From Desulfovibrio sp. Fe33 (GTDB lineage: Bacteria; Desulfobacterota; Desulfovibrionia; Desulfovibrionales; Desulfovibrionaceae): 64,000 bases of DNA. The translations under genes and the position numbers were made by a program. The stretch is from contig NZ_JAQKGU010000002.1 in the NCBI RefSeq assembly GCF_028532725.1, positions 186,001 through 250,000 on the forward strand, written 5' to 3'. Below the pieces are notes generated by a model that made no database searches, was not told the origin of the DNA, and saw only the letters and a program-made list of their open reading frames with translations. Shown piece after piece: positions 11,673 through 29,854 of the stretch (positions are counted from its first letter, which is position 1; each line of letters opens with the position of its first letter).

Positions 11673-13055
11673 TTATTGGCCGAATATCTGCGCCGGGCGA
11701 GTGGGATCGCCGGTGGCGTTCGGGAAGTCGGGATACCTGTAAGCCTTGGTGTTGGTGTCGATGAGGTGGCGGGCCTCCTCCATGAACCGGTTGTAGCGGT
11801 GCTTGCACTCGTAGAATCCGTGCCACCATGCGTAGTCCGGGGCCATCATGGCCACGCCCATGCGGGCTCGGCGGCCTTCGTGGTGCCACAGCTCGTAGTA
11901 TTCCACTTCAAGGTGCTCGTCGAAGAACTTGGTCTTGTCGAGCAACCCCTTCTCATAGAGTTCGTCCAAGGTCTTCTTGGCGGGTTTGAAGTAGACCTCG
12001 TTGTACTCCTCCACCGCGGTGTCGAGCTGGGTGTAGAAGTCGTCGATCCAGGACTGTCCATGGCACTGGCTGCAAATGTTCTTCATCTTGTCGCGTTCGA
12101 CCTGCCAGTCGGTGGCTGCCGGAAGCGGCTTGAACTCGGACGGGCGGACCGTCAGCGGGGCCTGGGTTTCCCAGGAAATCCGTTCGGTCACGTCATGGGT
12201 CGTGGCCACGTCGCCGGAGCCGGACATGTGGCAGGCGGCGCAGGTGGGGGCGCGGTAATCCACGCCGGGAGTCCAGGCGCCGGGAGCGGAGTCGAAGTTG
12301 TATTCGTGCTTGAACGCCTGGTAGATGTCGCCGTGCTTGGATTCGTTGAAGATCTCGATCTGCGGGTGGTCGGGACCGAGGTGGCACTGGCCGCAGGTCT
12401 CGGGCTTGCGCGCTTCCATGACCGAGAAGCGGTGGCGGGTGTGGCAGCTCGTGCAGGAACCGAGGGAGCCGTCCATGTTCAGGCGGCCCACGCCCACATT
12501 GGGCCAGGTGTCGGGATCAAGCTTGCCGTCCTTCATCTTGAGCACCGTGCCGTGACAGTAGTAGCAGCCGGTCTTGCGCTCGTTGTCGGAGTTCATGCCG
12601 CCGTTGAGCCACGGGTCGAGCTTCCACATGATCTCGATGGTATTGGCGTGCTTGCTCAGGGAGTATTGCTTGGCCTCGTCCGGGTGGCAGCGGGAACAGT
12701 CCTTGGGCGTCACCGGGGCGGCAATGGGCACGAAGTACTGCTTCTCGCCCATGGGCAGATCGCCCCTGGAGTAGTATTTCTCATGGGCCACGCTGATGTC
12801 CTGCTCGCCGGGCTGGGCCTGGTGGCAGTCCAGGCAGGTGATGCCCGCCGCCGCGTGGCGGCTCATGGCCCAGTCGGCGAAGATGCCGGGGGTCTCCTGT
12901 TTATGGCATTCGATGCAGGCCGTGCCCTGGGGCGGGGTGGCCCGTTCCATGCGCAGTTCGCGGACTTTGGGGAAATTTTGCGCGCCGGCTGCGGTGGCGG
13001 TCAGGGCGATGACGGCCAGCATGGCGGCGAGGGTGAACGTCACTCTGCGATACAT
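11673..13055 (-). CDS. octaheme hydroxylamine-oxidoreductase-like cytochrome c
   Basis: 460 residues with a signal peptide (MYRRVTFTLAAMLAVIALTA, cleavage near residue 25) and eight CxxCH motifs: CIECH, CLDCH, CSRCH, CYYCH, CTSCH, CGQCH, CAACH and CSQCH. Length, heme number and order match the HAO family. Pairing with a NapC/NrfH quinol dehydrogenase next door is the arrangement of the reductive epsilon-type Hao, which takes electrons from quinol to reduce nitrogen oxides or hydroxylamine in the periplasm. Whether the tyrosine that cross-links the catalytic heme in oxidative HAO is absent needs alignment. The ATG at 13055 has a strong AGGAGG site. The substrate is inferred. Confidence 0.85.
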   Translation of the reverse strand: MYRRVTFTLAAMLAVIALTATAAGAQNFPKVRELRMERATPPQGTACIECHKQETPGIFADWAMSRHAAAGITCLDCHQAQPGEQDISVAHEKYYSRGDLPMGEKQYFVPIAAPVTPKDCSRCHPDEAKQYSLSKHANTIEIMWKLDPWLNGGMNSDNERKTGCYYCHGTVLKMKDGKLDPDTWPNVGVGRLNMDGSLGSCTSCHTRHRFSVMEARKPETCGQCHLGPDHPQIEIFNESKHGDIYQAFKHEYNFDSAPGAWTPGVDYRAPTCAACHMSGSGDVATTHDVTERISWETQAPLTVRPSEFKPLPAATDWQVERDKMKNICSQCHGQSWIDDFYTQLDTAVEEYNEVYFKPAKKTLDELYEKGLLDKTKFFDEHLEVEYYELWHHEGRRARMGVAMMAPDYAWWHGFYECKHRYNRFMEEARHLIDTNTKAYRYPDFPNATGDPTRPAQIFGQ

Positions 13056-13066
13056 AAGCAAACCTC

Positions 13067-13639
13067 CTAGATACCCAGATTGGACAGTCCGCTGGCCCGG
13101 TAGGGAGCGCTGAACTGCTTGTACTCGAAGAACTGCCTGTCGTTGTGGACCAGGTCCCGGTGACAGTCCGTGCAGCGGTATTCCACGCCGTTTCCCGCAT
13201 AGAGCACCTTGCGGTGGGCCAGCATGGCCCCGCGCTTGCCCGGCATGTGCAGGATGTTTCGGTGGCACTTCATGCACTGGTCGTTCTTCATGGTGGCCCA
13301 TATCCGCTCGCGCATGACCGCCCTGTCATACGTCTCGGCGCCGCCGGTGAAGTGGGCGAGCACATCCTTGGCGCCGTGCATGGTCTTGGTGAAGAAGAAG
13401 TCAACGGTGTCGTGCGGAGCGGGCAGGTGGCAGTCCATGCAGTCGGCCACGAACCCCTGGGCGTTGTTGACGTGCGTCGAACTCTTCCAAGCCATGACGG
13501 CCGGGCGGATTTCATGGCAGCTTCCGCAGAACTCCGGGGTCGAAGTCCTGACCATGGTGTAATAGGTCATGCTGAAGAGCGGAAAGGCGATCAGGATGCC
13601 GAAAAGAACCAACAGGATCGATTTTGTTTTTCGTTCCAT
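13067..13639 (-). CDS. NapC/NrfH-family tetraheme quinol dehydrogenase
   Basis: 190 residues. One N-terminal transmembrane anchor (about 7-29) is followed by four CxxCH sites (CGSCH at 38-42, then CMDCH, CMKCH and CTDCH). This is the NapC/NirT/NrfH plan: membrane-anchored oxidation of menaquinol and electron delivery to a periplasmic reductase. It is first in the two-gene unit and ends 11 bases before the octaheme cytochrome, its likely partner. No NrfA pentaheme nitrite reductase is nearby, which argues against a plain NrfHA. Confidence 0.88.
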   Translation of the reverse strand: MERKTKSILLVLFGILIAFPLFSMTYYTMVRTSTPEFCGSCHEIRPAVMAWKSSTHVNNAQGFVADCMDCHLPAPHDTVDFFFTKTMHGAKDVLAHFTGGAETYDRAVMRERIWATMKNDQCMKCHRNILHMPGKRGAMLAHRKVLYAGNGVEYRCTDCHRDLVHNDRQFFEYKQFSAPYRASGLSNLGI

Positions 13640-14148: not shown

Positions 14149-14176
14149 AAAAAAAAGCCGGGAACGGATTCCCGGC
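14149..14176 (-). terminator. rho-independent terminator after the sensor kinase
   Basis: On the minus strand a perfect 8-bp stem GCCGGGAA / TTCCCGGC with a 4-base loop is followed by eight T. It lies 24 bases beyond the kinase stop. Confidence 0.92.
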
Positions 14177-14199
14177 CGAAAGGAAGCCGCGACGGGCCG

Positions 14200-16470
14200 C
14201 TACAGCTCGCATTCCGCCTTGGGAAAGTCGATTTCGAAGCAGGCGCCGCCCTCCTCCCAGGAGGTGGCACGGATGTTCCCGCCGTAGTCGTTGATGATGC
14301 CGTAGGAGATGGACAGGCCCAATCCGGTGCCCTTGCCCACGTTCTTGGTGGTGAAGAACGGTTCGAACAACCGTTCGCGGATGGCCGGAGGGATGCCCGC
14401 GCCGGTGTCGCAGATGCGGAAGATTATGCGTTCGGGCGTGCTGAACGACTGGAGCAGGATGCGCTTGTCGGCGTTGCCCTTCTCGTCCTTCCAGCGGTCC
14501 TCGATGGCGTCTCGGGCGTTGAGCAGGAGGTTGATGACCACCTGTTCCAGGCGGTTGGAGTCGGCCATGATGAGGGGCAGGTTTTCCTCCAGCTCCCAGA
14601 TGACCCGGATGTTGTGCACCTGGAGCTGCTGGCTGAAGAACTCGAAGCCGCGTTCCAGGACTTCGTTGATCTGCACCGGCATGGTCCGCAGGTCGGACTT
14701 GCGCCCGAATTCGCGCATGTGCTCGATGATCTTGGCGGCCCGGTCCACGTGGGTGGAGATGCCTTCGGTTATCTCGCGCATGATTTCGGGGGAAACCTCG
14801 GAACCGCTCGCCGCCTTGCGCGAGAGCAGGTTGGAGATGGCCTGCAGGATGGTCAGGGGCTGGTTCAGCTCGTGGGCCACGCCGGTGGACATTTCGCCCA
14901 GGGTGGTCATCTTGCTGGCCTGGATGAGCTGTTGCTCGGCCTCGATCTTGCGGGTCACATCCGTGCAGGTGACTATGAGCGTTTCATGTCCCTCGAACCG
15001 GGCGGGCGAGATGCTCAGGAAGACGAAGAACGGCTTGCCGGACTTGTCCACGTGGGTGCACAGCTCGATCTCCGCCTGATTGCGCACGGCCTCTTCCCAG
15101 TCTCCGGCCTCGCCTTCGCGGAAGAAGCCCATAAAGCTCCGGCCGCGCATTTCGAGCTGGCTCCAGCCATACATCTCCTGCGAGGATTCGTTGCTGTTGA
15201 GGATGTTCAGCGTCTGCCTGTCGAGGACGAAGACCGCGTTGGGTATGGAGTCGAAAATGGCGTGGTAGCGGTGCTCGGACGCGGCCAGCTTGGATTCGAG
15301 CTCACGGCGGTGGGTGATGTCGATCATCATCTCCATGGCGGCCACGACCTCTCCCGATTCGTTGCGGACCGGCGAGGTGTAGACGATCCAATGGATGGGC
15401 TGCCCGTCCTTGGACATGCCCGACTCCTCGCTCATGTGGGGCATACCGTCGCGGAAGGTGCGGTCCACCGGGCAGGCTTCGCATTTTTCGAGCCGCCCCT
15501 TGTTCACCTGCCAGCATCGCTTGCCCATGGGCAGGCCGAAGTGCCGCTCGTAGGCCGAGTTGTGCTGGATGACCTTGTAGTCGGTGTCAACCACGGAGAC
15601 CAGGCAGGGCACGTTGTCGAACAGGTTCCGGTATTCCTCGCGCTGTTCGAGCAGCTCGCGGTGCTTGTCCGAGACCCGCCTGCCCATCATGTTGAAGGCC
15701 TGGCCCAGGGTGCCGATCTCGTCCACCTGCTCGATGTCTATGTCGGTGTAGTCCTTGTCGCCGCTGATTCCCCTGGTGGCGGCGATGAGCCGCCTGATGG
15801 GCCGGAAGATGAACCTGTAGGTGAAGGCGAACAGGGCCAGGAACGTGGCCGCGAAGACCACCACGGAGATGCCGAGGTTGGCCCGCTCGAACATCACTAT
15901 CATGGAGTTCTTGTCGTCCATGTTCACGGTCACGTCCAGCAGGCCGAGGACCTGCTCCTCCTTGGAGTGGACGTGGCAGGGCCCGGGGGAGCATCCCTCG
16001 GAGTTGGCGATGGGCGTCATGATGGACATGAGCTGCCGTTGGCCGGAATCCACCATCCTGCTGCGCTTGGACAGGGGCAGGGCCGGGGGCGGCGGGTCGT
16101 ACTGGTGGCAGGCGTTGCAGGCTGGGGCTTCCTGTCCGATGACGGTGCCGATTTCCTCGGGGATGTTGGAAAAGACGATCTCCCCCTGCTTGTTGTACAC
16201 GCGGATGGACTCGATCTCTTCCTGCCTGCTGATGTTGTTGATGTTCTCTTTGATGTCCTCTTCACTGTCGAGCATCATCGCGTAGTGCAGGGCGAGCATG
16301 ATCGTGTCGGACACCATCTCGATGTCCGACATGGCGTTGGAGACCACGTTGCTCTTGAAATAATAGACGTTGAACCCGGTCCACAGGAAGATGCACAGGA
16401 TGAGCGTCACGCCTCCCGACAGGATCATCTTCGCGATGAGGCTCTGACGGAATCTCTTGAGCATCTTCAC
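14200..16470 (-). CDS. membrane sensor histidine kinase with periplasmic heme-c motifs
   Basis: 756 residues. Transmembrane helix 1 (about 14-36) leads to a periplasmic domain (37-205) holding CNACH near residue 120 and CSPGPCH (a CX4CH site) near 160. Helix 2 (about 210-232) follows, then HAMP, two PAS domains (about 295-415 and 420-535), HisKA with the phosphoacceptor in GVAHELNQPL, and HATPase_c (NLLLNARDAIED, DTGAGIP, GTGLGLS). The two heme-attachment motifs suggest a covalently bound heme pair sensing redox state or a gas, as in other heme-c sensor kinases. It is the last gene of the hmc-linked regulatory cluster. The first PAS carries a CEACPVDRTF cysteine motif. Confidence 0.88.
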   Translation of the reverse strand: MKMLKRFRQSLIAKMILSGGVTLILCIFLWTGFNVYYFKSNVVSNAMSDIEMVSDTIMLALHYAMMLDSEEDIKENINNISRQEEIESIRVYNKQGEIVFSNIPEEIGTVIGQEAPACNACHQYDPPPPALPLSKRSRMVDSGQRQLMSIMTPIANSEGCSPGPCHVHSKEEQVLGLLDVTVNMDDKNSMIVMFERANLGISVVVFAATFLALFAFTYRFIFRPIRRLIAATRGISGDKDYTDIDIEQVDEIGTLGQAFNMMGRRVSDKHRELLEQREEYRNLFDNVPCLVSVVDTDYKVIQHNSAYERHFGLPMGKRCWQVNKGRLEKCEACPVDRTFRDGMPHMSEESGMSKDGQPIHWIVYTSPVRNESGEVVAAMEMMIDITHRRELESKLAASEHRYHAIFDSIPNAVFVLDRQTLNILNSNESSQEMYGWSQLEMRGRSFMGFFREGEAGDWEEAVRNQAEIELCTHVDKSGKPFFVFLSISPARFEGHETLIVTCTDVTRKIEAEQQLIQASKMTTLGEMSTGVAHELNQPLTILQAISNLLSRKAASGSEVSPEIMREITEGISTHVDRAAKIIEHMREFGRKSDLRTMPVQINEVLERGFEFFSQQLQVHNIRVIWELEENLPLIMADSNRLEQVVINLLLNARDAIEDRWKDEKGNADKRILLQSFSTPERIIFRICDTGAGIPPAIRERLFEPFFTTKNVGKGTGLGLSISYGIINDYGGNIRATSWEEGGACFEIDFPKAECEL

Positions 16471-16500: not shown

Positions 16501-16947
16501 CTACTCCCCGTCGCGTTTTGGCGGGTTCATCGGGCAGAGATAGGCGTCCTTCATCAGGTCCGCCAGCGAATAGGAGTCCAGCATCTTGTACATGGCCATG
16601 GAGGCGTCGTCCCAGATGGAACGCTTGAGGCAGACGGCCGCGCGCGGACAGGTGGACGGATCGCCCTCGCAGCCCAGGACCTGCTCCTCGCCGTCCAGGA
16701 TGCGGGCCACCTCGCCGATGGAAATATCTTCGGGTTCGCGAACCAGGACGTTGCCGCCGTTGGGACCGCGCTTGCCCTTCACATAGCCCGCCTGCTTGAG
16801 CATTTTAATGAGCTTTTCAAGGTACTTCAAGGACAGCCCTTCGCGGTCGGCCGTATCCTTGCTCGGCACGGGGCTGCCGTTGTCGGAGTGCAGGGCGATG
16901 TCCAGGAGCAATCGGGTGCCGTATCGGCTGCGTGTAGTCAGTTTCAT
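16501..16947 (-). CDS. rrf2: Rrf2-family transcriptional regulator
   Basis: 148 residues with the Rrf2 winged helix at the N terminus (MKLTTRSRYGTRLLLDIA, LEKLIKMLKQAGYVKGKRGPNGG broken by variable residues). Three cysteines near 90-105 are spaced CX6CX5C, comparable to the Fe-S ligands of IscR and other Rrf2 proteins, so an Fe-S sensing role is plausible. Rrf2 was first named in D. vulgaris as the repressor encoded with hmc; its position here, downstream of hmc, supports the name. Its candidate operators are the palindromes before hmcA. It starts 30 bases before the heme kinase gene. Confidence 0.88.
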   Translation of the reverse strand: MKLTTRSRYGTRLLLDIALHSDNGSPVPSKDTADREGLSLKYLEKLIKMLKQAGYVKGKRGPNGGNVLVREPEDISIGEVARILDGEEQVLGCEGDPSTCPRAAVCLKRSIWDDASMAMYKMLDSYSLADLMKDAYLCPMNPPKRDGE

Positions 16948-17065: not shown

Positions 17066-18976
17066 TTACCGTCCGGTGCGGTCGGGCAGGGTGATGACGA
17101 AAGTCGATCCCTTTTCCGGGGAGGACTCGACGCGAATGGACCCGCCGTGCTGTTCGATGGTCTGGTTGGAGATGAACAGCCCGATGCCGGTGCCGCGTTT
17201 GCCCTTGGACGAGAAGAACAGGGTGAAAATCTTGTCCCTGGTTTCGCGGTCCATGCCCATGCCGTTGTCCGACACGGTGACGACAAGGCCTTTGTCCTCG
17301 CGGCGGGCCGACAGTTTCAGGAGTCCGTTCTTCCGGCCCTCGCAGGCGTCCACGCCGTTTTCCAGGAAATTGACCAGGGCGGCGGACAAGGCCGCGGTGT
17401 CGGCCTGCAACAGTCCGAGGCCGTCCGGGATGTCGCGGGCGAACTCCACGTTGTGGGCGGCCGCCCGGGCCGCGGCGATGTCGGCGGTGTCCCGGAGGAA
17501 CGCCGTGGCGTCCACGGCTTCGGTCTCAAGCTCCCTGGATTTGGCGTAGTAGAGGATGTCCAGGACCATCTTCTTGACGCGGCCGATCATGGCCTTGAGC
17601 GTCCTGGTGGCGGCTTCCACCCGTTCGGTGTCGCCCTTTTTAAGGCCGGATTCCAGCCGGTAGATGCCGCCGTCCAGCGAGGTCAGCATACCCTTTACGC
17701 CGTGCGACATGGAACCGAGCATGATGCCCAGCGAGGTCAGGTGGTCCTGGAGCCTGCGGATTTCGGTGATGTCCGTGGACATCTCCATGGCCTGGAACAC
17801 CCGGCCCGAGGCGTCGTGGAGCGGGGCGGACTGGACGAGCATGTGCTTCTGCTCTCCCGTCAGGGTGGTGACCACGGTCTCCCGCTGCCGGGATTCGCCG
17901 TCCAGCAGGGTCTTGTCCACCAGGCAGCCTTCGCAAGGCTCGTTGCGGTGCTTGTATGCCTCGAAACAGAAATGGTCTTCCACCTCGCCGAAGTCCCGCT
18001 TGAAGAGGCGGTTGGCCTCGACGATCTTCAGGTCCGCATCCTGCACGGTGATGTAGCAGGGCGCTTCGTCGAACAGGCGGCGGTACTTGTACTGCGTGGT
18101 CAGCAGTTCATCCTGCAACCGCTTGAGTTCGGTCATGTCCACGGAGATATCCAGGACGAGCTCGATTTCTCCATCCTTGTTCGGCAGGGGGGCGGTATAG
18201 ACCGTGACCGGAATCTCCTCGCCGTCCTTGCCCAGAAAATTTTCCTTGCTCCGCTGGCCCTTGCCGGTCTGGAAGGTGCGCTGCACCGGGCAGGCGTTGC
18301 CCGGCGAGGTGCGGTCGGAGTAAATGTCGAAGCTGTTGTTGCCTACCTGGTTGCCGAGGCGTTCCTCGAAGAGCCGGTTGTGGGCAACGATTTCGAGATA
18401 GCGGTTGTGGATGGACACCAGACAGGGCAGTTCGTTGAACACGCCGTAGCCGGTCTCCACCTCCTGGGCGGCGTCGGACAGGGCCGAGGACAGTCCCTGG
18501 ACCACCTGGCAGGCGGCGTTCTGCCGCTCCAGTTCCACGATCCTGTTGGTCTTCTCCTCGACGAGCTTTTCCAGGTTTTCGGTGTACTCGCGGAGCTGGA
18601 GCTTCATGCTGTACCGCTCGCGGGCGCGTTCCAGGGAGATTTCCAGAACGTCGTTGTTGATGGGCTTGGTGATGAAGTCCGAGGCGTCGAACTTGAGGGA
18701 TTCGATGGCCAGGTCCATGTCGCCATGGCCGGTTATCATGACGACTTCCGTGTCGGGGGAGCGTTCCTTGATGGCCTTGAGGAGATCGATGCCGTCCATG
18801 ACGGGCATCTTGATGTCGGTGAAGACGATGTGCGGCCGGAAGGAATCGAATATATCGAGGGCATCCCGCCCGTTGGCGGCGGTTTCAACCTCGTAGCCCA
18901 TATCTATCAGAGAGAGGCCGAGGAAACGGCGGACGCCTTCCTCGTCATCCACGAGCAACAGTCGTTTGAAATCCAT
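17066..18976 (-). CDS. response-regulator/PAS/PAS/histidine-kinase hybrid
   Basis: About 636 residues, soluble. An N-terminal receiver (residues 1-120) has the acidic pair, phosphoacceptor D in VFTDIKMPVMDG and the conserved K in ITKP. A coiled coil (125-160) and two PAS domains (about 170-290 and 295-410) follow. A dimerisation segment with MSHGVKGML holds the probable phosphoacceptor His, and the HATPase_c domain has NFLENGVDA, DNGMGM and GTGIGLFIS. Receiver-first kinases often act within phosphorelays. Two adjacent ATGs are possible; the second (18976) is better spaced from GGAGGG. Cysteine motifs ACPVQRTF and CEGCLVDKT occur in the PAS domains. Confidence 0.88.
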   Translation of the reverse strand: MDFKRLLLVDDEEGVRRFLGLSLIDMGYEVETAANGRDALDIFDSFRPHIVFTDIKMPVMDGIDLLKAIKERSPDTEVVMITGHGDMDLAIESLKFDASDFITKPINNDVLEISLERARERYSMKLQLREYTENLEKLVEEKTNRIVELERQNAACQVVQGLSSALSDAAQEVETGYGVFNELPCLVSIHNRYLEIVAHNRLFEERLGNQVGNNSFDIYSDRTSPGNACPVQRTFQTGKGQRSKENFLGKDGEEIPVTVYTAPLPNKDGEIELVLDISVDMTELKRLQDELLTTQYKYRRLFDEAPCYITVQDADLKIVEANRLFKRDFGEVEDHFCFEAYKHRNEPCEGCLVDKTLLDGESRQRETVVTTLTGEQKHMLVQSAPLHDASGRVFQAMEMSTDITEIRRLQDHLTSLGIMLGSMSHGVKGMLTSLDGGIYRLESGLKKGDTERVEAATRTLKAMIGRVKKMVLDILYYAKSRELETEAVDATAFLRDTADIAAARAAAHNVEFARDIPDGLGLLQADTAALSAALVNFLENGVDACEGRKNGLLKLSARREDKGLVVTVSDNGMGMDRETRDKIFTLFFSSKGKRGTGIGLFISNQTIEQHGGSIRVESSPEKGSTFVITLPDRTGR

Positions 18977-19063
18977 CATACCCTCCGGGGGGAGCCTCCC
19001 GCGGGCCGTCGCAACGGCTGTTTCCCCGCGGGCCTCTCTCCAGTCCAGGATTGCCGGGCAGGG

Positions 19064-19420
19064 CTATTCGCCCAGGGCCTCTCGTACGATCTGGATTACA
19101 TCCGCCGGGTCGAAGGGCTTCTTGATGGTCGCCACGGCCCGCCGAATGGCCAGATGGATTCCCGACAGTCCGCTGATGACGATCACCGGAATGTCGGAGA
19201 ATTCCTTCTCACTGGTCAGCCGACGGTAGAAACGGGGCCCCCACTCGTGGGGCATTTCAATATCCAGCGTGATGAGGTCAGGCTTTTCGGCCATGGCGAC
19301 TTCATAGGCTGATATTCCGTCGGATGCGCGGCAGGTATCGTATCCGTGGTCTTCGAATACGCTTACGAGGTAGTCGACGATATCCGGATCGTCATCCACC
19401 ACCATGATTTTTTTTGGCAT
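19064..19420 (-). CDS. stand-alone response regulator receiver (Rrf1-like)
   Basis: 118 residues, a receiver domain only: VVDDDPD acidic pocket, phosphoacceptor D in LITLDIEMP, S/T switch in VIVISG and K in IKKPFDP. With no output domain it probably acts by phosphotransfer or protein contact. It closely resembles the next receiver upstream (19563-19916); both share PDLITLD.EMP and EWGPRFYR. D. vulgaris has one such gene, rrf1, after hmcF; here there are two. Confidence 0.9.
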   Translation of the reverse strand: MPKKIMVVDDDPDIVDYLVSVFEDHGYDTCRASDGISAYEVAMAEKPDLITLDIEMPHEWGPRFYRRLTSEKEFSDIPVIVISGLSGIHLAIRRAVATIKKPFDPADVIQIVREALGE

Positions 19421-19562: not shown

Positions 19563-19916
19563 CTAGCCGATGGCGTCCTTGACGATCTTCAGCAGCTGGG
19601 CAGGCTCAAAAGGTTTCGTGAGGCTTGCGATCGCCTTGGGAATAGCGTATTTGATCGCGTTGAGGCCGCTGATGACCACGACCGGGGTACGCTTGAGCGT
19701 CTCGTCCTGGCTGATCTTGCGGTAAAACCTCGGGCCCCATTCGTTGGGCATTTCCAGGTCCAGCGTAATCAGGTCGGGTTTCTCGGTCTTGGCGATCTCC
19801 ACAGCCTCTGCGCCGTCGTTGGCGGTTACGGTCTCATAACCGTTGTCGCCGAGCAGTTCGGACAGATAAGAGCGGATTTCCTGGTCGTCGTCGACGATGA
19901 GAATCTTCTTGGACAT
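19563..19916 (-). CDS. rrf1: stand-alone response regulator receiver (Rrf1-like)
   Basis: 117 residues starting MSKKILIVDDDQEIRS, chosen over an upstream in-frame ATG because AGGAGG precedes 19916. The receiver fold is complete with phosphoacceptor D in LITLDLEMP, VVVISG and LTKPFEP. It is the first regulatory gene after the hmc/usp unit, the place occupied by rrf1 in D. vulgaris, which is why that symbol is suggested. It is flanked by hairpins on both sides and may be transcribed alone. No DNA-binding domain is present. Confidence 0.85.
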   Translation of the reverse strand: MSKKILIVDDDQEIRSYLSELLGDNGYETVTANDGAEAVEIAKTEKPDLITLDLEMPNEWGPRFYRKISQDETLKRTPVVVISGLNAIKYAIPKAIASLTKPFEPAQLLKIVKDAIG

Positions 19917-19964
19917 AACTTTCCTCCTGGTACTCACGAATCAGTTCGCTTGATTCTTGATTTG

Positions 19965-20048: not shown

Positions 20049-20942
20049 CTAAACCTTGTCGGGCTTGCTCACGCTGACCACAGGGCATCCCGCCCGCAGG
20101 ATGACCTGCTCCATGGTGGAGCCGATGGAGGCCAGATCCGGGTCGAGCTCGCGGGAGTGGTGCGCCAGGACGATGAGGTCCGCGGACCGTTCGCGCGCGA
20201 TCTTGACTATTTCCACATAGGGCACGCCTTCCCACACTTCGATGTCGAAGTTCTTGAAGTCGCCCAGAAGCGGGCCGTAGGTCTCACGGATGCGGTTCCG
20301 CGCCGTGATGATTTTGTCCTCGATGGCGTTCTGGTCCATGACCTTGCCGCTGATGTCCAGGGCGTGGAACATGGTCAGGTCGCAGTCGAGCTCCCTGGCG
20401 GCGTTCAGGGCGAATTTGAAGGCGTATTCCGCCTGTTTGGAGAAGTCGGTGGCGAAGACGATGTTCCCGAAGCCGCCCCAGTAGGAGGCGGTTTCGCGGT
20501 GCACGGTCATCACCGGGCAGCGGGCGGCCTTGGCCACGCGTTGCAGGGTGGAGCCGGGGTAGCCCTTGCGGTAGGCGCTCGAATCGCCGGAGCTTGCGCC
20601 CATGACGATGAGGTCGGCGTCCTCGGCCCGCGCGGCCCGCAGGATCTCGCGGCTGGGCACGCCCGTGGTGGTCACGATCTTGGCGTACTCGACCGACTCG
20701 ATCTGCTTCTCGAAGGTGGATTTGAGTTCCTCCTCGACCCAGGCGCGGTATTCGTCGTCCACTTCGATCTCTTCGCCGGTGCGCACGTCGTTGACCACCT
20801 GGGAAAAGGCCTTGGTGGGCACGCCCATGACGTTGAACACCACCACCTCGGCCCCGTAGCGTTTGGCCATGTCGAAGGCCACCCGCGCGGCGCCGAAGGT
20901 GGACGGAGCACCGCTGGTCGCCAGTAGAATCTTCTTGAACAT
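20049..20942 (-). CDS. universal stress protein, two UspA domains
   Basis: 297 residues with tandem Usp folds (about 1-160 and 165-297). Each half ends with a nucleotide-type loop (VMGASSGDSSAYRKG and SIGSTMEQV regions). It starts 35 bases after hmcF, with no terminator between, so it belongs to the hmc transcript. The D. vulgaris hmc operon as I know it has no usp gene here. A paralog of equal length lies at 58992-59879; both share the G.PYVEI segment. Function is unproven: Usp proteins modulate stress and energy states, some by binding ATP. Confidence 0.9.
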   Translation of the reverse strand: MFKKILLATSGAPSTFGAARVAFDMAKRYGAEVVVFNVMGVPTKAFSQVVNDVRTGEEIEVDDEYRAWVEEELKSTFEKQIESVEYAKIVTTTGVPSREILRAARAEDADLIVMGASSGDSSAYRKGYPGSTLQRVAKAARCPVMTVHRETASYWGGFGNIVFATDFSKQAEYAFKFALNAARELDCDLTMFHALDISGKVMDQNAIEDKIITARNRIRETYGPLLGDFKNFDIEVWEGVPYVEIVKIARERSADLIVLAHHSRELDPDLASIGSTMEQVILRAGCPVVSVSKPDKV

Positions 20943-20977: not shown

Positions 20978-22369
20978 TTATTCCTCGGTGGGGCGCAGGT
21001 GCTCGGGCACGTCGAGCATCTTGATGACCAGCGGCTTGAGGAAGGACCAGCGGATGCCGATCTTGTACTCTTCCTCCAGGTCGCGGATGGCGTCCCAGCA
21101 GTTGTGGCAAGGGGCGATGACCAGCTTGCAGCCGGTGTCGAGAATCTGCTCCATCTTCTTGCGCAGGGCCACGTTGCGCTGTTCGCGGTACAGGCCGATG
21201 CCGTTGAAGCCGCCGCCACCGCCGCAGCAGTAGTTGTGCTCCCGGTTGGGGGCCATTTCGACGAAGTAGCCGGGCTCGACGATGTAGCTGATGATCTCGC
21301 GGGTGACGTCCTTCAACCCCTGGTTGCGCACGTAGTTGCAGGAATCCTGCAGGGTGACCGGTTCCTTGATCCGCTTTGCGGGATCGATCTTGAGCTTGCC
21401 GGTGCGCAGGGCCTCGGCCAGCCATTCCACATAATGGATATACGGCACGGGCGGCTGGCCGTCGGGACGGCCCGCCCAGTACGGCCCTTCGATGACCGTG
21501 GCGCGGTGGGCGTGGCCGCATTCGGTGCCGATGGCCCGCTTGGGCTTGAGGCGCTCGAGGGCGGCGTAGACGTTGAGGACGTTGTCCTTGCAGCATTCCC
21601 AGTCGCCGGCGAACATGGACAGGGAGGTCTGCTCCCAGCCTTCGGAAGGCACGGTCCAGTTCTCGCCCGCCACATGGAAGAGGATGGCCGCTTCGGCGAT
21701 GTCCTCGGGGTAGTGCTTGGGCTCGCGGGCGTTGCAGGTGTACATGATGTCCGCGCCGACCTTGTCCACGGGGATTTCAAGGCCCGGCCAGTCTTCCTCG
21801 TTCTCCTCGGCCATCCATTCGCAGGTCTCGACCCAATCCTCGGTGGTCACGTCCATCTGGGCGCGGTACACGCGGTGCATACCGGAGCCGATCTTCAGCT
21901 CCCACGGGACAAAACCCTGGGAGTAGAGCAGGCCGCGCAGGTAGCTGAACATGACGCCCATGTCGATGCCGTGGGGGCAGTACATGCCGCAGCGGTTGCA
22001 GCAGGTGCACTTGGACCAGGCGGTCTCCATGCACATCTGCATGAACTCGTTGTCCACCTTACCCTTTTTCTTGACCATCACCCCGAGGGTGGACTGGATC
22101 TTGTAGGACGGGACCTGTTCCGGCACCCGGCCGTTGACCTGGTACAGGAAACAGCTCTCGGCGCACAGGCCGCAGTGGGCGCAGATTTCGAGCCAGGTCT
22201 TGGTCCTGGATTTCATGGTCTTCTGGATGGTGGCCCAGAGCTTGTCCGAGTCCACGTCCAGGTGGTTCATTTCTTCGTAGTATTGCTTGCCGCCCTTGTC
22301 GCCGAGAGTGGCCTTGAGCTGCTCGTCGGTATTGATCGGCGTCTTATTGCAGAATTTTCCTTCAGGCAT
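20978..22369 (-). CDS. hmcF: HmcF, heterodisulfide-reductase-like Fe-S subunit of the Hmc complex
   Basis: 463 residues. Two 4Fe-4S binding segments ([11 protein letters not shown] near 73 and [14 protein letters not shown] near 120) precede two cysteine-rich HdrD/CCG-type regions, the second ending CCGGGGGFN with a later CHNCWD. This is the plan of HmcF/DsrK, a cytoplasmic membrane-associated subunit thought to receive electrons from the membrane partners. It is the last hmc gene and starts 33 bases after hmcE. Confidence 0.92.
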
Positions 22370-22402: not shown

Positions 22403-23080
22403 TTACCAGGCCATGTCCGTGCCCTTCATGCCGCCGCGCTTGATGCCGTAGTCCATGCCCAACTGCATACGGGACATGAAGAACAGCACAACGTGGCTGA
22501 GCTTGGTGAAGGGCAGGGCCAGGAGCCAGATTTCGCCGCTCAGGATGTGGGCGGCCAGCCAGAAGTTGTAATCTCCCATTTCGTACCTGGCGATCAGGCC
22601 GGTGATGAACGGCATCACGGTGATGACCAGCAGCAGGTAGTCGTAGAAGGTCGTGATGATGCGCACCTCCGGGAAGGCGATCCGCCTGAGGGTCAGGAAC
22701 AGGCCGCCCACCAGGCAGGTCCAGGCCAGCACGTCCGCCACGCCGGTGGGCAGGGTGGGCAGGCTGAACCCGAAGGCGTTCTTCAGCATCACGTTGTGCG
22801 CCTCCAGGAAGATCGGGGTGACGAGCAGCCCGATGTGGAAGGCGAAGAAGATGAGGGTGAAGCCGGGGCGCACGCGCCACAGCCGGGCCCTGAACGGGAT
22901 GATGAAGGCCAGGATGGAGCGCAGGCCGCCCCGGATGCCGTATTTCATTTGAGGACGGTAGGCCACGCGGTCGAGCTGCCAACTGAGGCCTTTGACGTAC
23001 ATCACGCTGCGGACGAGCAGGCCGCCGAAGCTGACGATAAACGTCGCCCAGAGCATGGGCCCGGTCAGGAAATCGTACAT
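22403..23080 (-). CDS. hmcE: HmcE, integral membrane subunit (NarI/DsrM-like)
   Basis: 225 residues with about five membrane helices (FIVSFGGLLVRSVMY, FTLIFFAFHIGLLV, LAWTCLVGGLFLTL and others). It contains histidines positioned like the heme b ligands of NarI/DsrM-type cytochromes. In D. vulgaris HmcE is the membrane subunit between HmcD and HmcF; order, size and spacing agree here. It probably exchanges electrons with menaquinone. Confidence 0.9.
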   Translation of the reverse strand: MYDFLTGPMLWATFIVSFGGLLVRSVMYVKGLSWQLDRVAYRPQMKYGIRGGLRSILAFIIPFRARLWRVRPGFTLIFFAFHIGLLVTPIFLEAHNVMLKNAFGFSLPTLPTGVADVLAWTCLVGGLFLTLRRIAFPEVRIITTFYDYLLLVITVMPFITGLIARYEMGDYNFWLAAHILSGEIWLLALPFTKLSHVVLFFMSRMQLGMDYGIKRGGMKGTDMAW

Positions 23081-23274: not shown

Positions 23275-24450
23275 CTAGTGTTCGCCCTTGTAGTCCGGGT
23301 GCTCGTAGAAAATGGGCATCCGAGTGGAGATGAACCGGAAGGCCAGCACGCCGATGGTCACCACGAACAGCGAGATGGTGATCTCGCCCCAGCTCGGGAA
23401 GTACCGCTCGGCGGACGGGAGCTGATAGTTGAAGGCGACCAGGGAGATGTTGAACCGGTTTACGATGATGCCGAGCACGGTCAGGCCCGCTGCCCATCGG
23501 ATGATGGTCAGGTTCTTGTCGCGTGCGCCGATGGCGTACAGGAAGGACGGCAGGGCCACGAAACCGAGCATTTCCACCAGGAACCACGCGCCGTAGCCGG
23601 TGGTCAGGTAGTGCCAGTTGTTGTCGTAGGCCAGGCCGATGACCTTGATGGAGAAGTACCCGAACAGCACGAGGGAAGCGGCCTTTCCGAAACCGAGGAT
23701 CAGGCCGTCGTGGTTGTTCAGGTACTCCTCATCCATCAAGTGGTGCATGGGCTTGTGTGAGAGGGTTCCCTCGAAGATGACCATGGACAGGCCCGCGGCG
23801 ATGCTCGACACGAAGAAGAACACCGGGAGGTATTGCGAGTACCAGAGCGGGTGGAGCTTCGACGGGGCGATGGTGAACAGCGCGCCCAGGGAAGACTGGT
23901 GCAGCGTGGAAAGAACCACGCCGAGGATGGTCAGGGCGAGGGTCATCTTGACCACGATGTTGCGGATCTTCTTCATGCCCAGCCATTCGAACGCGGCCGG
24001 GGTGAATTCGATGAACAGCACGGTCAGGTAGAGCATGACGCACAAACCCACTTCGAAGAGCAGCGAGGTCGTTCCCTGCTGGACGAAGATGGGGTAGGGC
24101 AGCCGCCAGGGACGGCCCACGTCGTAGCCCAGGGCGAAGACCACCAGGGCGTAGCCCAGGAAGGCGGTCAGGATGGCCGGGCGGACGCCTGCGTGATACT
24201 TCTTCAGGCCGAACAGGTAGCAGGCGGCGGAGGTGGTGTAGCCGCCCGCGGCCAGAGCGACGCCGCAGAGCAGATCGAAGCCGATCCAGATGCCCCAGGG
24301 GTTGTTCTGGTCCAGGTTGGTGACGGCCCCCAGGCCGCCGGTGAAACGCATCGCCGTGACCACCAGTCCGGCGACGAGAATGATTCCAGAGATAATATTG
24401 AACGGAGTGAAGATTGATTTCTTCGCTACCGCAGTGGTTTCGACAGACAT
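23275..24450 (-). CDS. hmcC: HmcC, NrfD/PsrC-family membrane subunit
   Basis: 391 residues with about ten membrane helices, of the NrfD/PsrC family that binds quinone beside a four-cluster Fe-S protein. N-terminal FNIISGIILVAGLVVTAMRF and later GYTTSAACYLFGLKKY are typical. It abuts hmcB with no gap (HmcB stop 24451, HmcC start 24450), so the two are translationally coupled. Confidence 0.92.
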   Translation of the reverse strand: MSVETTAVAKKSIFTPFNIISGIILVAGLVVTAMRFTGGLGAVTNLDQNNPWGIWIGFDLLCGVALAAGGYTTSAACYLFGLKKYHAGVRPAILTAFLGYALVVFALGYDVGRPWRLPYPIFVQQGTTSLLFEVGLCVMLYLTVLFIEFTPAAFEWLGMKKIRNIVVKMTLALTILGVVLSTLHQSSLGALFTIAPSKLHPLWYSQYLPVFFFVSSIAAGLSMVIFEGTLSHKPMHHLMDEEYLNNHDGLILGFGKAASLVLFGYFSIKVIGLAYDNNWHYLTTGYGAWFLVEMLGFVALPSFLYAIGARDKNLTIIRWAAGLTVLGIIVNRFNISLVAFNYQLPSAERYFPSWGEITISLFVVTIGVLAFRFISTRMPIFYEHPDYKGEH

Positions 24451-25506
24451 CTAGGACTCCTCCTCTTTGGTTCCGGCGTCCTCTTCCTTCGGGGCGAGCG
24501 CCTCTTCGACGGCCTTCTTTACTTCGACCTCGATGCGGCGCTGGCTGGCCTGCTCGGCCTTGCCCAGCTCCTCGTGAAGCTTCTTCTCGGCCTCTTCGCC
24601 CGCCCGTTTCAGGGCGTCCTTGACCGCCTGGACGCGTTCGGCGTTGGCGATCTTGGCGTTGCGCTGCGTCACGGCGTAGATGCCGCCCAACAGCACGGGC
24701 CACAGGCCGACCACGATGGGCACGGCGGCCAGGGGACCGGCGGTCAGTTCGGGGGCGCTGACGGTGCCCAGGTCTTCGCGCATTCCGATCTCGGAGAAGG
24801 GAACGCCGGAGAGGTACATCCAGCTCGTGCCGCCCATCTCGCGCTCGCCGTAGATGTGGTTCACATAGCGGTCGGGATAGGTCTCGATGCGCTTGCGGGC
24901 GATCTTGATAAGCTCCTCGCGCGGGCCGAAGGTCAGGGCCTCCTTGGGGCATTTCTCCACGCAGCCGGGGAGCTTGCCCTCCTGGAGGCGCGGGTAGCAC
25001 ATGGTGCACTTGCGTACCCGGGGAGTCAGCGGCTCGCTGTATTCGTAGGCCGGGACCGAGAACGGGCAGGCCACCATGCAGTAGCGGCAGCCGACGCACA
25101 CGGAGGCGTCGTAGGTCACTGCGCCGTTGGGCTGCTTCTTGAAGGCCCGCACGAAGCAGGCCGAGGCGCAGGCCGGTTCCAGGCAGTGGTTGCACTGCTG
25201 TTTGCGGAAGACCGGGCCCTTGGCTGTCTGGTACCGGTTGACCACGGTAAAGGTGTTCTCGTCGGTCCGCCGTACGGTATCGAGCACGGACAGATCGTCG
25301 AATTTCTTTTCCGGTTGCGGCAGCTCGTTGACTTCGTTGCACGCCTGCTCGCATTTGCGGCAGCCGATGCAGCGGGTGGCGTCAAAAAGCACGCCGTGGG
25401 TGTCGGGATGCGGGCCGAAGTGCTTGTTTGCGGCCTTGGCCGGAGTGGCCAGCGCTGCGCTCGCGCCTGCGGCACCCAACAATCCGAGGAAGGTTCTGCG
25501 TAACAT
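24451..25506 (-). CDS. hmcB: HmcB, periplasmic-facing four-cluster ferredoxin subunit
   Basis: 351 residues. The N terminus [19 protein letters not shown] is a Tat-type signal with the RRTFLG motif. Four cysteine groups follow ([35 protein letters not shown] and [16 protein letters not shown]), giving four [4Fe-4S] clusters. A C-terminal membrane helix (near 245-265) and a charged coiled-coil tail of about 80 residues rich in E and K finish the protein. It should pass electrons between HmcA and HmcC. It ends directly at the hmcC start. Confidence 0.93.
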
Positions 25507-25521
25507 CGTATGCTCCTTCGG

Positions 25522-27132
25522 CTAGTTGGTTTTCTTCTCGTGGCACGCGACGCAGTTGGTGGCGGCGGGCTTTTCGAGCTTCATTTCCTGGTGACAACTC
25601 ATGCACTGGCCGTGGTATGCGGCTTTCAGTCCGGGCCTGCCTTCGGTCTCGAAGGGCTTGCCGTGGCAGCTCGCGCACTTGGGCGGGGTCAGAGTGGCCG
25701 GGGCGTTGTGGTGGCAACCGGCGCAGACGGCCTCGGGCGAGGCATGGAAGGTGGCGGCAAGCCGGTTGTCCTTCATGCCCTTCAGGAGGCTCAGGACGAT
25801 CTTGCGGTGCGGCATCTTGCTCGGCTGGTATTGGTCGGCCAGAGCGTCGATGTTCACGAACTCGGGGATATCCTTCTCGGCGACCATGGCCTGGGTCTCG
25901 GGACGGGCCGCGATGACCCTGGCGGCCTCGGCTTCCTTCTCTTCCTTGGACATGGCGGCCGGGTTCACGGGCGCGCTGACCAGCAGCCGGAAGCCCGGCT
26001 CGTCGGCAACGCCGACATTGTGGCAGGAGGCGCAGGAGTTCTCGGACAGCGCCTTGGCGGCGGGACGAGCCTCATGGCAGCCCGCGCACTCGGGCTTCTT
26101 CTGTTCCTGGACGTGGCAGCCCACGCAGGTGGACGGGTCGGTGACGTTGTGCAGCGCTTCGAACGAGGCGTTCAGCTTGGCGTTGACGCCGTCCTTGTGG
26201 CAGGTCAGGCAGGAGTCGGTCTTGGCCTCGTGGAGCTTGTGGTCGAAGGCCACGGGGGCCATGCCCGAGGGCTTGTCCCCGGCCTTGGCTTCCTTGTCCT
26301 TGGAGCCGGGGGCCAGGAGCACGGCGTCGGGCTGCTTGCGCGGCAGGCGCGGCAGGACGCCGCCCATGGCCTTCAAGTCCTTGGCCAGCTCGACGTTGCG
26401 CTCGGCTATCTGCTCGGTGCCGTGGCAACCGGCGCACTGCACCGGGCCGGAGCGCTCGGCCTTCTTCTCAATGAGGCTCTGATGGCAGGTCACGCACTGG
26501 CTGTGGAAGACGTCCTTGACCGGTTCGGCCTTGGCTTCGTCGGAGAAACGCCAACTGTCTTCCTCGCCCGCCTTCTTGTGGCACGCGCCGCAGTTGGTCT
26601 CCTTGCCCTGGTCGGCCGGGATGATCTTGGAATCCCAGTGGACGAAGTGGAGCATGTTGTCCATGCCCGCCGGAACCCGGTCGGCGTTTTCGGGCCGCAC
26701 CTGATGGCAACTGCGGCATTCGCCGGTCTTGGGACCGGTCTTGAAGCCCTTCTCCTCGCTCTTGACGTGGCAGGAGATACAGTTGTCGTGGTACATGTCC
26801 TTGAGCTCGGTCGCGGTCAGCTCGGGCTGTCCCTCGCCTTCCAGCCTGCCGAAGGTCAGGGCCATGTCGCCCTTGGCGTCCTTCTGGTGGCAGGATTCGC
26901 AGCTCATGCCCTGATCCTTCAGGGCCTTGGTGTGCGCGTCGTGCTTGAACACGGCCGCAGGTTGTTCGAGTGACTCCAGCCTGGCGATGGTGTCAATCAT
27001 GATCACGTCCGGCCGCCCGGCGGTCTTGTCCGTCGAGCCGAGCATACCCATGGCTTCCAGTTGGAAGCCGAGCACCCCGGCCAGCGTGATCGCGATGGCA
27101 GTCAATCGCAGTATCCGTTTACCGTTTGCCAT
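25522..27132 (-). CDS. hmcA: HmcA, high-molecular-weight multiheme cytochrome c
   Basis: 536 residues with a signal sequence (ILRLTAIAITLAGVLGF) and 14 CxxCH motifs by direct count, from CESCH near residue 78 to CVACH at the C terminus. The best known HmcA (D. vulgaris) is of similar length but carries 16 hemes. The arrangement of repeated heme groups with a heme-poor linker near 380-440 fits class III-type cytochrome modules. It accepts electrons from periplasmic cytochrome c3 and hydrogenases and hands them to HmcB. It is first in the operon, 15 bases before hmcB, behind a palindrome-rich leader. Confidence 0.93.
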   Translation of the reverse strand: MANGKRILRLTAIAITLAGVLGFQLEAMGMLGSTDKTAGRPDVIMIDTIARLESLEQPAAVFKHDAHTKALKDQGMSCESCHQKDAKGDMALTFGRLEGEGQPELTATELKDMYHDNCISCHVKSEEKGFKTGPKTGECRSCHQVRPENADRVPAGMDNMLHFVHWDSKIIPADQGKETNCGACHKKAGEEDSWRFSDEAKAEPVKDVFHSQCVTCHQSLIEKKAERSGPVQCAGCHGTEQIAERNVELAKDLKAMGGVLPRLPRKQPDAVLLAPGSKDKEAKAGDKPSGMAPVAFDHKLHEAKTDSCLTCHKDGVNAKLNASFEALHNVTDPSTCVGCHVQEQKKPECAGCHEARPAAKALSENSCASCHNVGVADEPGFRLLVSAPVNPAAMSKEEKEAEAARVIAARPETQAMVAEKDIPEFVNIDALADQYQPSKMPHRKIVLSLLKGMKDNRLAATFHASPEAVCAGCHHNAPATLTPPKCASCHGKPFETEGRPGLKAAYHGQCMSCHQEMKLEKPAATNCVACHEKKTN

Positions 27133-28741: not shown

Positions 28742-29854
28742 TTAAGGGGTCACGTCCTCCATGTCCTGGCGCTTTTCCCTGTCCAGGGGGAATCGCCTGA
28801 CCTGCTTGCCGGAGGAGAAGTCCACGCGCTTGAGGTCGATCACCCGCACGCGCCGGTTGTGCTGGGTGTGATAGTAGAGCTTGAGATTCCGCGTGTCCGC
28901 CGCGCAAGTCCAGAGGGTCGAGCTGCGCATTCCAGCGAGTTTCGCCGGGTCCGCCCCCGGACCTTCGGCCGAGCCTGCGGGCAGGGTGAAGTTGTCCAGG
29001 ATGCGGAACACTTCGTACACGGTCTCGTCCCCGTCGGGCGTCTTACGGGCGGTTTGGGAGTATGCCACGGCGCGGATGAAGCGGGACGGGGGCGTGAAGT
29101 CGCCGGGCAGGCCGAGGAAACCGGAGCCGCCGCCGATGGGGGCGAGGGTCAGGTCATCCAGTTTTTTGGCGGGCCAGGCCACGGCGGACAGGTTGACGTA
29201 GTTGCGCAGGTTGGTCATGTGCCAGTCGAAGCTGGGCGAATTGGTCAGAACCCGCAGGGGATTGTCGAATACGCGCAGCTTGCCTTCAAGATATTCGATC
29301 ACGATGGCCTTTCCGCTTGGGTCCATGACCGTCAGGTGGAGCGGGGCGGGCTTGCCCAGGGCCGGTTCGGTGACGGCGCATACGCGAATTTTCTCCAGCC
29401 CGGCGCGCACTTCGTCCACAGTGGCGAACTGCGTGAGCACATAGTTGGGGAACATGGAGGAACTCAGCGTAGAGCTCGCACGGGCCGGGTCGTAAGACTG
29501 GTATTGAGCGAATCCGGGATGGTAGAGCATTCCGACCACCAGCCCCTTCTCGTTCATGCCGTCGGAAAGGAGGTCCTTCTCAAGGGCGTCGAAGGCCGCC
29601 ACGCCGTATTTCGCTTCCCAGCGCACTCCGGGTTTGCCGTCCGGAGTCTCGGACTGGAAAACGTGTCCCCGGGGTACGACGACCAGGCGCGATTTGAGGT
29701 CGAAGGTTCCCCATTCCATGGTTCTTCCGTAGACAAGCGCGCCGTCTTCGGCCATGAGGCCGATGCTTGTGCAGGCCTGCGATGCCGTGTGCAGAAGCAA
29801 CAAGGCAAGTATCGCGGTCAGGCCGCCCATCGTCATCCGTTGCAGAGTGTTCAT
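28742..29854 (-). CDS. choloylglycine-hydrolase-family (Ntn) amidase, exported
   Basis: 370 residues. A signal peptide ends right before cysteine 28 (LHTASQA/CTSIG); in this family that Cys becomes the N-terminal nucleophile after processing. GRTMEWG matches the conserved Arg/near-active-site block, LTNSP the Asn and SRFIRA the second Arg of bile-salt hydrolases and penicillin V acylases. The enzyme should hydrolyse linear amides in the periplasm. The substrate is open: bile salts, acyl-homoserine lactones and penicillin-like amides are all known in the family. Confidence 0.87.
   Translation of the reverse strand: MNTLQRMTMGGLTAILALLLLHTASQACTSIGLMAEDGALVYGRTMEWGTFDLKSRLVVVPRGHVFQSETPDGKPGVRWEAKYGVAAFDALEKDLLSDGMNEKGLVVGMLYHPGFAQYQSYDPARASSTLSSSMFPNYVLTQFATVDEVRAGLEKIRVCAVTEPALGKPAPLHLTVMDPSGKAIVIEYLEGKLRVFDNPLRVLTNSPSFDWHMTNLRNYVNLSAVAWPAKKLDDLTLAPIGGGSGFLGLPGDFTPPSRFIRAVAYSQTARKTPDGDETVYEVFRILDNFTLPAGSAEGPGADPAKLAGMRSSTLWTCAADTRNLKLYYHTQHNRRVRVIDLKRVDFSSGKQVRRFPLDREKRQDMEDVTP

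Follow-up and report, generated by a model that had tools for sequence, protein, structure and literature searches.

To our knowledge, the control of electron flow through the Hmc and Hdr complexes of sulfate reducers is poorly understood. The window (the whole stretch of 64,000 nt analyzed here) carries a gene for a sensor kinase with two heme c motifs at the end of its hmc cluster, which raises the question of what this kinase senses and to which complex it reports. Starting from what was obtained directly, i.e., motifs, predicted topology, homology, a modelled fold, conservation and gene order, we favor the reading that a two-heme periplasmic Cache kinase acts as a redox ligand-switch sensor of the cytochrome pool and feeds back on Hmc or Hdr complexes; we put its probability at roughly 55%. 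A conserved two-heme kinase beside hmc or Hdr operons would connect, in a way open to experiment, the redox state of periplasmic cytochromes with transmembrane electron-moving complexes.

Architecture and heme motifs of the kinase

The kinase ORF (14200–16470, minus strand) begins with a GTG start codon and encodes a diheme-type sensor histidine kinase of 756 aa. Its domains follow in the order TM1, periplasmic Cache domain, TM2, HAMP, PAS, PAS, HisKA and HATPase, with HAMP, HisKA and HATPase scoring above the Pfam cut-offs and thereby identifying the protein as a sensor histidine kinase. Hydropathy places the membrane helices at approx. residues 9–38 and 190–222, separated by a periplasmic segment of approx. 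160 residues. Because these helices are set on either side of the two heme motifs, both motifs should be periplasmic. Motif 1 is a CxxCH (C118-N-A-C121-H122; 16105–16119, minus strand) and motif 2 a CX4CHxH (C160-SPGP-C165-H166, followed by V and H168; 15967–15993, minus strand). When the periplasmic segment was shuffled 200,000 times, a CxxCH and a CX4CH occurred jointly in a fraction of 1.5e-5; 50,000 shuffles covering the entire protein never gave both within residues 38–200. A chance origin of the motifs was rejected based on these statistics and on their conservation in BLAST relatives, and the claim of an earlier note that two heme c motifs lie between the two membrane helices is thus confirmed.

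Conservation was assessed by a BLAST search of 60 related genomes with the whole domain, a query which is not keyed to the motifs. Matches were found in 36 genomes. All 30 loci read from this search (own genome counted) contain CxxCH and CX4CH, and all 29 full-length matches (own genome excluded) have exactly one of each. The 30 loci comprise 19 close orthologs (65–100% identity, own genome counted) and more distant relatives. Both motifs are kept in 19/19 of the close orthologs; conservation of the cysteines, by which the earlier note had wanted its proposal to be judged, was examined in this way and found. A profile search of the phylum detected the domain in 98 of 297 genomes; from its results, 30 loci were taken automatically and 60 further regions were chosen by us with weak matches favored. 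Among the 102 full matches read, 70 have CxxCH plus CX4CH, one has CxxCH plus CX3CH, eight have two CxxCH, 21 have a single CxxCH and two have CX4CH only. In an alignment of 204 deduplicated full-length rows (from 215 matches), motif 1 is kept in 182 rows and absent from 22, and a CX2-4CH of some spacing occupies site 2 in every row. Part of these rows stem from a search with two patterns. CX4CH is an element of one pattern and Met65 of the other, whereas CxxCH occurs in neither. After removal of the 77 pattern-search rows, motif 1 is present in 105 and CX2-4CH at site 2 in all of the remaining 127 rows. The histidine H168 was considered as distal ligand of heme 1 and is disfavored in this role, as it tracks the CX3-4CH spacing at site 2 rather than motif 1: it is present in both rows that have CX4CH without motif 1, and in only one of seven rows that combine motif 1 with CxxCH at site 2.

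The spacing of motif 2 had been called non-canonical in the earlier note, which is incorrect, since Geobacter signal proteins are described with a CX2-4CH heme signature (PMC8396549). Two Geobacter proteins that each have a pair of c-heme motifs are named in the same review; hence, both two-motif sensors and the CX4CH spacing were already known. GSU0591 and GSU0599, together with Adeh_2011 and Adeh_3383, are described as delta-proteobacterial signal proteins with likewise two c-heme motifs (PMC8396549, PMC3831638), and GSU0591 and GSU0599 share, according to their published description, the CX2-4CH signature with the kinase. Beyond the papers cited here, a literature search of open-licence papers yielded none on a two-heme Cache kinase, which does not imply absence in print. 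The own genome encodes CcmF, in line with the favored reading of a two-heme kinase. Cytochrome c maturation is useless as a correlate of the domain, because PF01578 is found nearly everywhere (291/297 genomes); two of the six genomes without PF01578 (G108 and G276, both 82% complete) carry the domain. As a side observation, several genomes have a second, shorter two-motif protein (open frame of approx. 270–360 aa) near a kinase of approx. 530 aa, often on the opposite strand (L205–L209, L211, L212 and similar loci).

Fold and relatives of the sensor domain

The kinase points to a separate branch of c-heme Cache domains, as its periplasmic domain scores below the cut-off of every Pfam and NCBIfam model. 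The segment modelled as sensor domain (15838–16401, minus strand; 188 aa including the ends of the membrane helices) forms a single Cache domain in the AlphaFold model (mean pLDDT 93.9), i.e., the single Cache/PAS-like fold of the Geobacter chemotaxis proteins GSU0935 (3b42) and GSU0582 (3b47). Structural comparison of the model gave Z-scores of 15.2 for WalK (4ywz; rmsd 2.0, 136 residues), 10.4 for CitA (1p0z) and 9.9 for Adeh_3718 (4k08). Foldseek matched it to 3b42_B with an E-value of 6.8e-4 and a poor superposition; crystal chains of the 3b42 type form a swapped dimer (PMC8396549). That 3b42 is not among the matches listed in the VIA structure comparison carries no evidential weight. In the model, motif 1 lies on a short helix (model residues 93–99) and motif 2 in the loop ahead of the last strand.

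Homology to the Geobacter proteins was detected with a profile of 120 sequences, whose top matches in the PDB are 3b42 (1.5e-6) and 3b47 (6.4e-5). The profile alignment brings the CxxCH of both structures onto the CX4CH of the kinase and places the CX2-4CH before the last strand, as in the GSU0935/GSU0582-type domain. Relatives whose only motif is the one at site 2 (alignment A4) match 3b42 at 3.7e-13 and the two-motif family at 3.6e-35; on these alignments, they are a bridge between the two-motif family and GSU0935. In GSU0935 and GSU0582, as in the kinase, two membrane helices flank a periplasmic Cache/PAS-like domain, with the heme site ahead of the last strand and a distal Met. However, the Geobacter proteins have one heme, bound by CxxCH, and an MCP output, whereas the kinase has CX4CHxH at this place, the additional CxxCH of motif 1 and a histidine kinase output.

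The domain was also compared with the sCache_heme family (DUF3365/Tll0287, PF11845), an extracytoplasmic Cache domain with covalent c-heme, as predicted for the kinase, and fused to kinases among others (PMC12889525), but with one heme motif instead of two. PF11845 has no match to the window protein at E-values up to 1. It matches three of the 120 sequences of the alignment at E-values up to 0.1 (best 7.4e-4), and the profile-profile comparison covers only 33 columns around site 2 with a probability of 7%. An ordinary PF11845 membership was therefore rejected; two other places in the same genome do match PF11845. Nevertheless, a distant kinship is possible, because the preprint places GSU0582 and GSU0935 in the sCache_heme family (PMC12889525).

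The predicted distal ligand of heme 2 is Met65 (16276–16278, minus strand), which aligns with Met60 of GSU0935 when the 3b42 chain is numbered via the cysteine positions given in PMC8396549. It is situated on the N-terminal helix, as is the distal Met of the GSU0935/GSU0582 type, and a Met is found at this position in 202 of 204 rows; outside the pattern search, whose patterns include Met65, the count is 125 of 127. Both exceptions are f5 kinases (L025, L030) with a threonine instead. As both are linked to hmc and do without Met65, an essential role of this residue is disfavored. In the crystal dimer of GSU0935, one heme is described as ligated by His144 and Met60, and Met60 as binding the reduced heme, being released on oxidation and being displaced by CO or NO; the midpoint potentials are −251 mV for GSU0935 and −156 mV for GSU0582 (PMC8396549). 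From these characterized relatives we infer heme attachment and ligand switch in the kinase: it likely binds two hemes covalently, and the ligation of heme 2 likely switches with the redox state. The interpretation of the earlier note holds in part, as the covalent-heme sensor that it proposed is well supported by the homology to GSU0935 and GSU0582, by both motifs being strictly kept in orthologs and by the conserved distal Met.

Gene contexts of the kinase family

In the window, the kinase gene is the last one of the hmc cluster, with the hmc and regulatory genes upstream on the same (minus) strand. Read from the kinase outward, these are an Rrf2-family regulator with three clustered cysteines (16501–16947), a REC-PAS-PAS-kinase hybrid protein (17066–18979), two stand-alone receiver domains (19064–19420 and 19563–19937), a universal stress protein with two Usp stretches (20049–20942), HmcF (20978–22369), HmcE (22403–23080), HmcC (23275–24450), HmcB (24451–25506) and HmcA (25522–27132). 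The three cysteines of the Rrf2 regulator may resemble those of cluster-binding IscR/NsrR in their spacing, and rrf1/rrf2 are regulatory genes of hmc in D. vulgaris. HmcA contains 14 CxxCH and no CX4CH, so that the description as 14-heme cytochrome in the earlier note fits the count; the name of the NCBIfam family is hexadecaheme. A choloylglycine-hydrolase-family protein (28742–29854) is encoded upstream of the hmc operon. Desulfococcus multivorans has response regulators, Usp and four histidine kinases beside hmc and thus resembles this locus in its receivers, Usp and kinases, but the excerpt of the paper mentions no heme sensor domain (PMC5109826).

The order hmcABCEF-usp-rec-rec-hybrid kinase-rrf2-heme kinase is the same in the window and in 18/18 orthologous regions (20 regions were fetched for gene order, two of them belonging to another family). 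HmcA and the kinase, each at a threshold of at least 65%, co-occur in the identical 19 of 60 genomes. Genetic linkage to hmc is therefore conserved, and the location in an hmc regulatory cluster, as noted earlier, is real. Taken together, the sequence comparisons support a Cache kinase with two c-heme sites that is a homolog of GSU0935 and a fixed member of the hmc regulatory cluster in this genus. However, since the 19 linked genomes represent one genus, a single arrangement passed on by descent accounts for most of the linkage. In other genera, the kinase is located immediately upstream of hmcA in one genome (G040), and four f5 genomes carry it 18–21 kb away from hmcA, on the same strand; both hmcA and the kinase are missing from the fifth f5 genome examined (G056). 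On a quick tree of 44 rows with several long branches and contexts labelled by us, the hmc and hdr contexts require three changes, which indicates few, though stable, associations.

In five type-B loci examined, no hmc was found within about 16 kb. Hdr genes were detected within 10 kb in at least 47 of 80 pattern-search loci, and two or more hmc-like genes in at least 8 of 80; the locus L098 was counted in each of the two groups, its hmc-like genes being only 36–37% identical. Both counts are lower bounds due to crude ORF picking, as exemplified by L034, which has no hmc in the neighbor count and yet carries hmc on the same contig in the gene-order analysis. Based on the type-B loci without nearby hmc and on the frequency of Hdr genes, we conclude that the kinase family is not specific for hmc.

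A frequent order on one strand is HdrA2-MvhD-FrhB/FdhB-like-HdrA-HdrC-HdrB-kinase (identities taken from representatives). One HdrA checked by Pfam has a Response_reg domain at residues 196–305, and phmmer detected a receiver domain in 39 of 62 HdrA-like neighbors. For neighbors located upstream of the kinase at a distance of no more than 5 kb, the count is 36 of 38 (here, as in the 10-kb counts, distances were taken between gene and domain midpoints); the two lacking a receiver come from short open frames of 850 and 575 aa, and in two of the 36 (L038, L050) the receiver is only partial and at the start of the open frame. One such receiver was displayed and retains the acidic and phospho-acceptor aspartates. 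The HdrA-like proteins with internal receiver upstream of a heme kinase (L051:685-4119 and 35 other pattern-search loci) are an observation in their own right; in a literature search of open-licence papers, none was recognized as treating a receiver-bearing HdrA, which does not imply absence in print. This arrangement suggests that the partner of the kinase may be a receiver inside the enzyme HdrA. A more specific version, which we consider speculative and unlikely in its entirety, is that in the many Desulfobacterota whose kinase gene comes after an HdrA-HdrC-HdrB operon, the kinase phosphorylates the HdrA receiver and so switches a flavin-based electron-bifurcating enzyme according to the periplasmic redox state, with the stand-alone receivers taking this part for Hmc in the genus of the window.

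Proposed signal path and alternative readings

In the favored reading of a redox sensor, heme 2 (CX4CH, proximal His166) would occupy the position of the sole heme in GSU0935 and GSU0582, with Met65 bound in the reduced and released in the oxidized state. Heme 1 (CxxCH) would be the added heme, for which electron entry or relay is the simplest role, and could couple heme 2 to the periplasmic pool of cytochrome c3 and HmcA, whose oxidation state would then set the activity of the kinase. The signal might pass to the receiver proteins of the cluster (the two stand-alone receivers and the hybrid kinase), which, together with the Rrf2 regulator, would carry it to hmc expression. Electron relay, partners and target in this path are inferred only; the kinase probably signals redox conditions on the outer side of the membrane to the Hmc complex.

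The alternative that survives best is that the domain is mainly an NO sensor, in which NO would either take the place of the distal Met at heme 2 or occupy heme 1, with the kinase then eliciting a nitrosative-stress response. GSU0582 and GSU0935 bind NO in both redox states, although the review reads sensors of the GSU0935 type as redox sensors (PMC8396549). Similarly, a signalling-associated c-heme Cache domain of DUF3365/Tll0287 is reported to bind NO tightly and to form no stable O2 complex (preprint, PMC12889525), but this belongs to the PF11845 type to which the kinase has no match. The neighboring Rrf2 regulator scores against NsrR, albeit below the cut-off, and an Rrf2/receiver pair of D. 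desulfuricans 27774, a candidate hmc pair, is described as strongly induced by nitrate (PMC5701242). Further, an NrfH/NapC-like tetraheme cytochrome and a cytochrome with eight CxxCH are encoded downstream of the kinase (11673–13639, same strand, 560 bp off). The best PDB match of the latter is 4qo5 (hypothetical multiheme protein), followed by chains of the hydroxylamine oxidoreductase type; based on these matches and the eight CxxCH, an identity as NrfA was rejected. Judged from sequence, the pair is possibly a nitrite or hydroxylamine reductase, and its location speaks for the NO reading. It is found downstream of the kinase in the window and in 10 of 18 orthologous regions, in two of them about 1.6 kb further off, but was not found in the other eight, whereas hmc is present in all 18. 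In sum, we regard a domain dedicated mainly to NO as rather doubtful.

The distribution of this gene pair also bears on the idea that the kinase controls the downstream cytochrome operon and not hmc. Strand, distance and the ten regions with a downstream pair are in favor of it; however, the eight hmc-bearing regions in which the pair was not found argue against it, as does a terminator-like hairpin with T tract directly 3′ of the kinase stop codon (14156–14177, minus strand; a pattern match only, such sites being no more numerous than by chance with 7 found vs. 7.7 expected in shuffles), and we hold this control to be improbable. It is highly improbable that the cysteines bind no heme and instead ligate a metal or an Fe-S cluster or form disulfides within the Cache domain, as the absence of motif 1 from 22 rows might suggest, because His is kept in both motifs, variation at site 2 is confined to CX2-4CH, the homologs GSU0935 and GSU0582 carry a covalent heme at site 2 (PMC8396549), and Met65 corresponds to their distal ligand.

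Independently of the periplasmic motifs, a cytoplasmic PAS domain of the kinase shows a C-x10-C-x2-CP triad (C319, C330 and C333; 15472–15516), and similar cysteines are seen in the hybrid kinase (17066–18979). The triad may form another metal or redox site, on the cytoplasmic side; it is kept in 18/18 orthologous kinases, in 2/2 f5 kinases and in 77/78 kinases from the pattern search.
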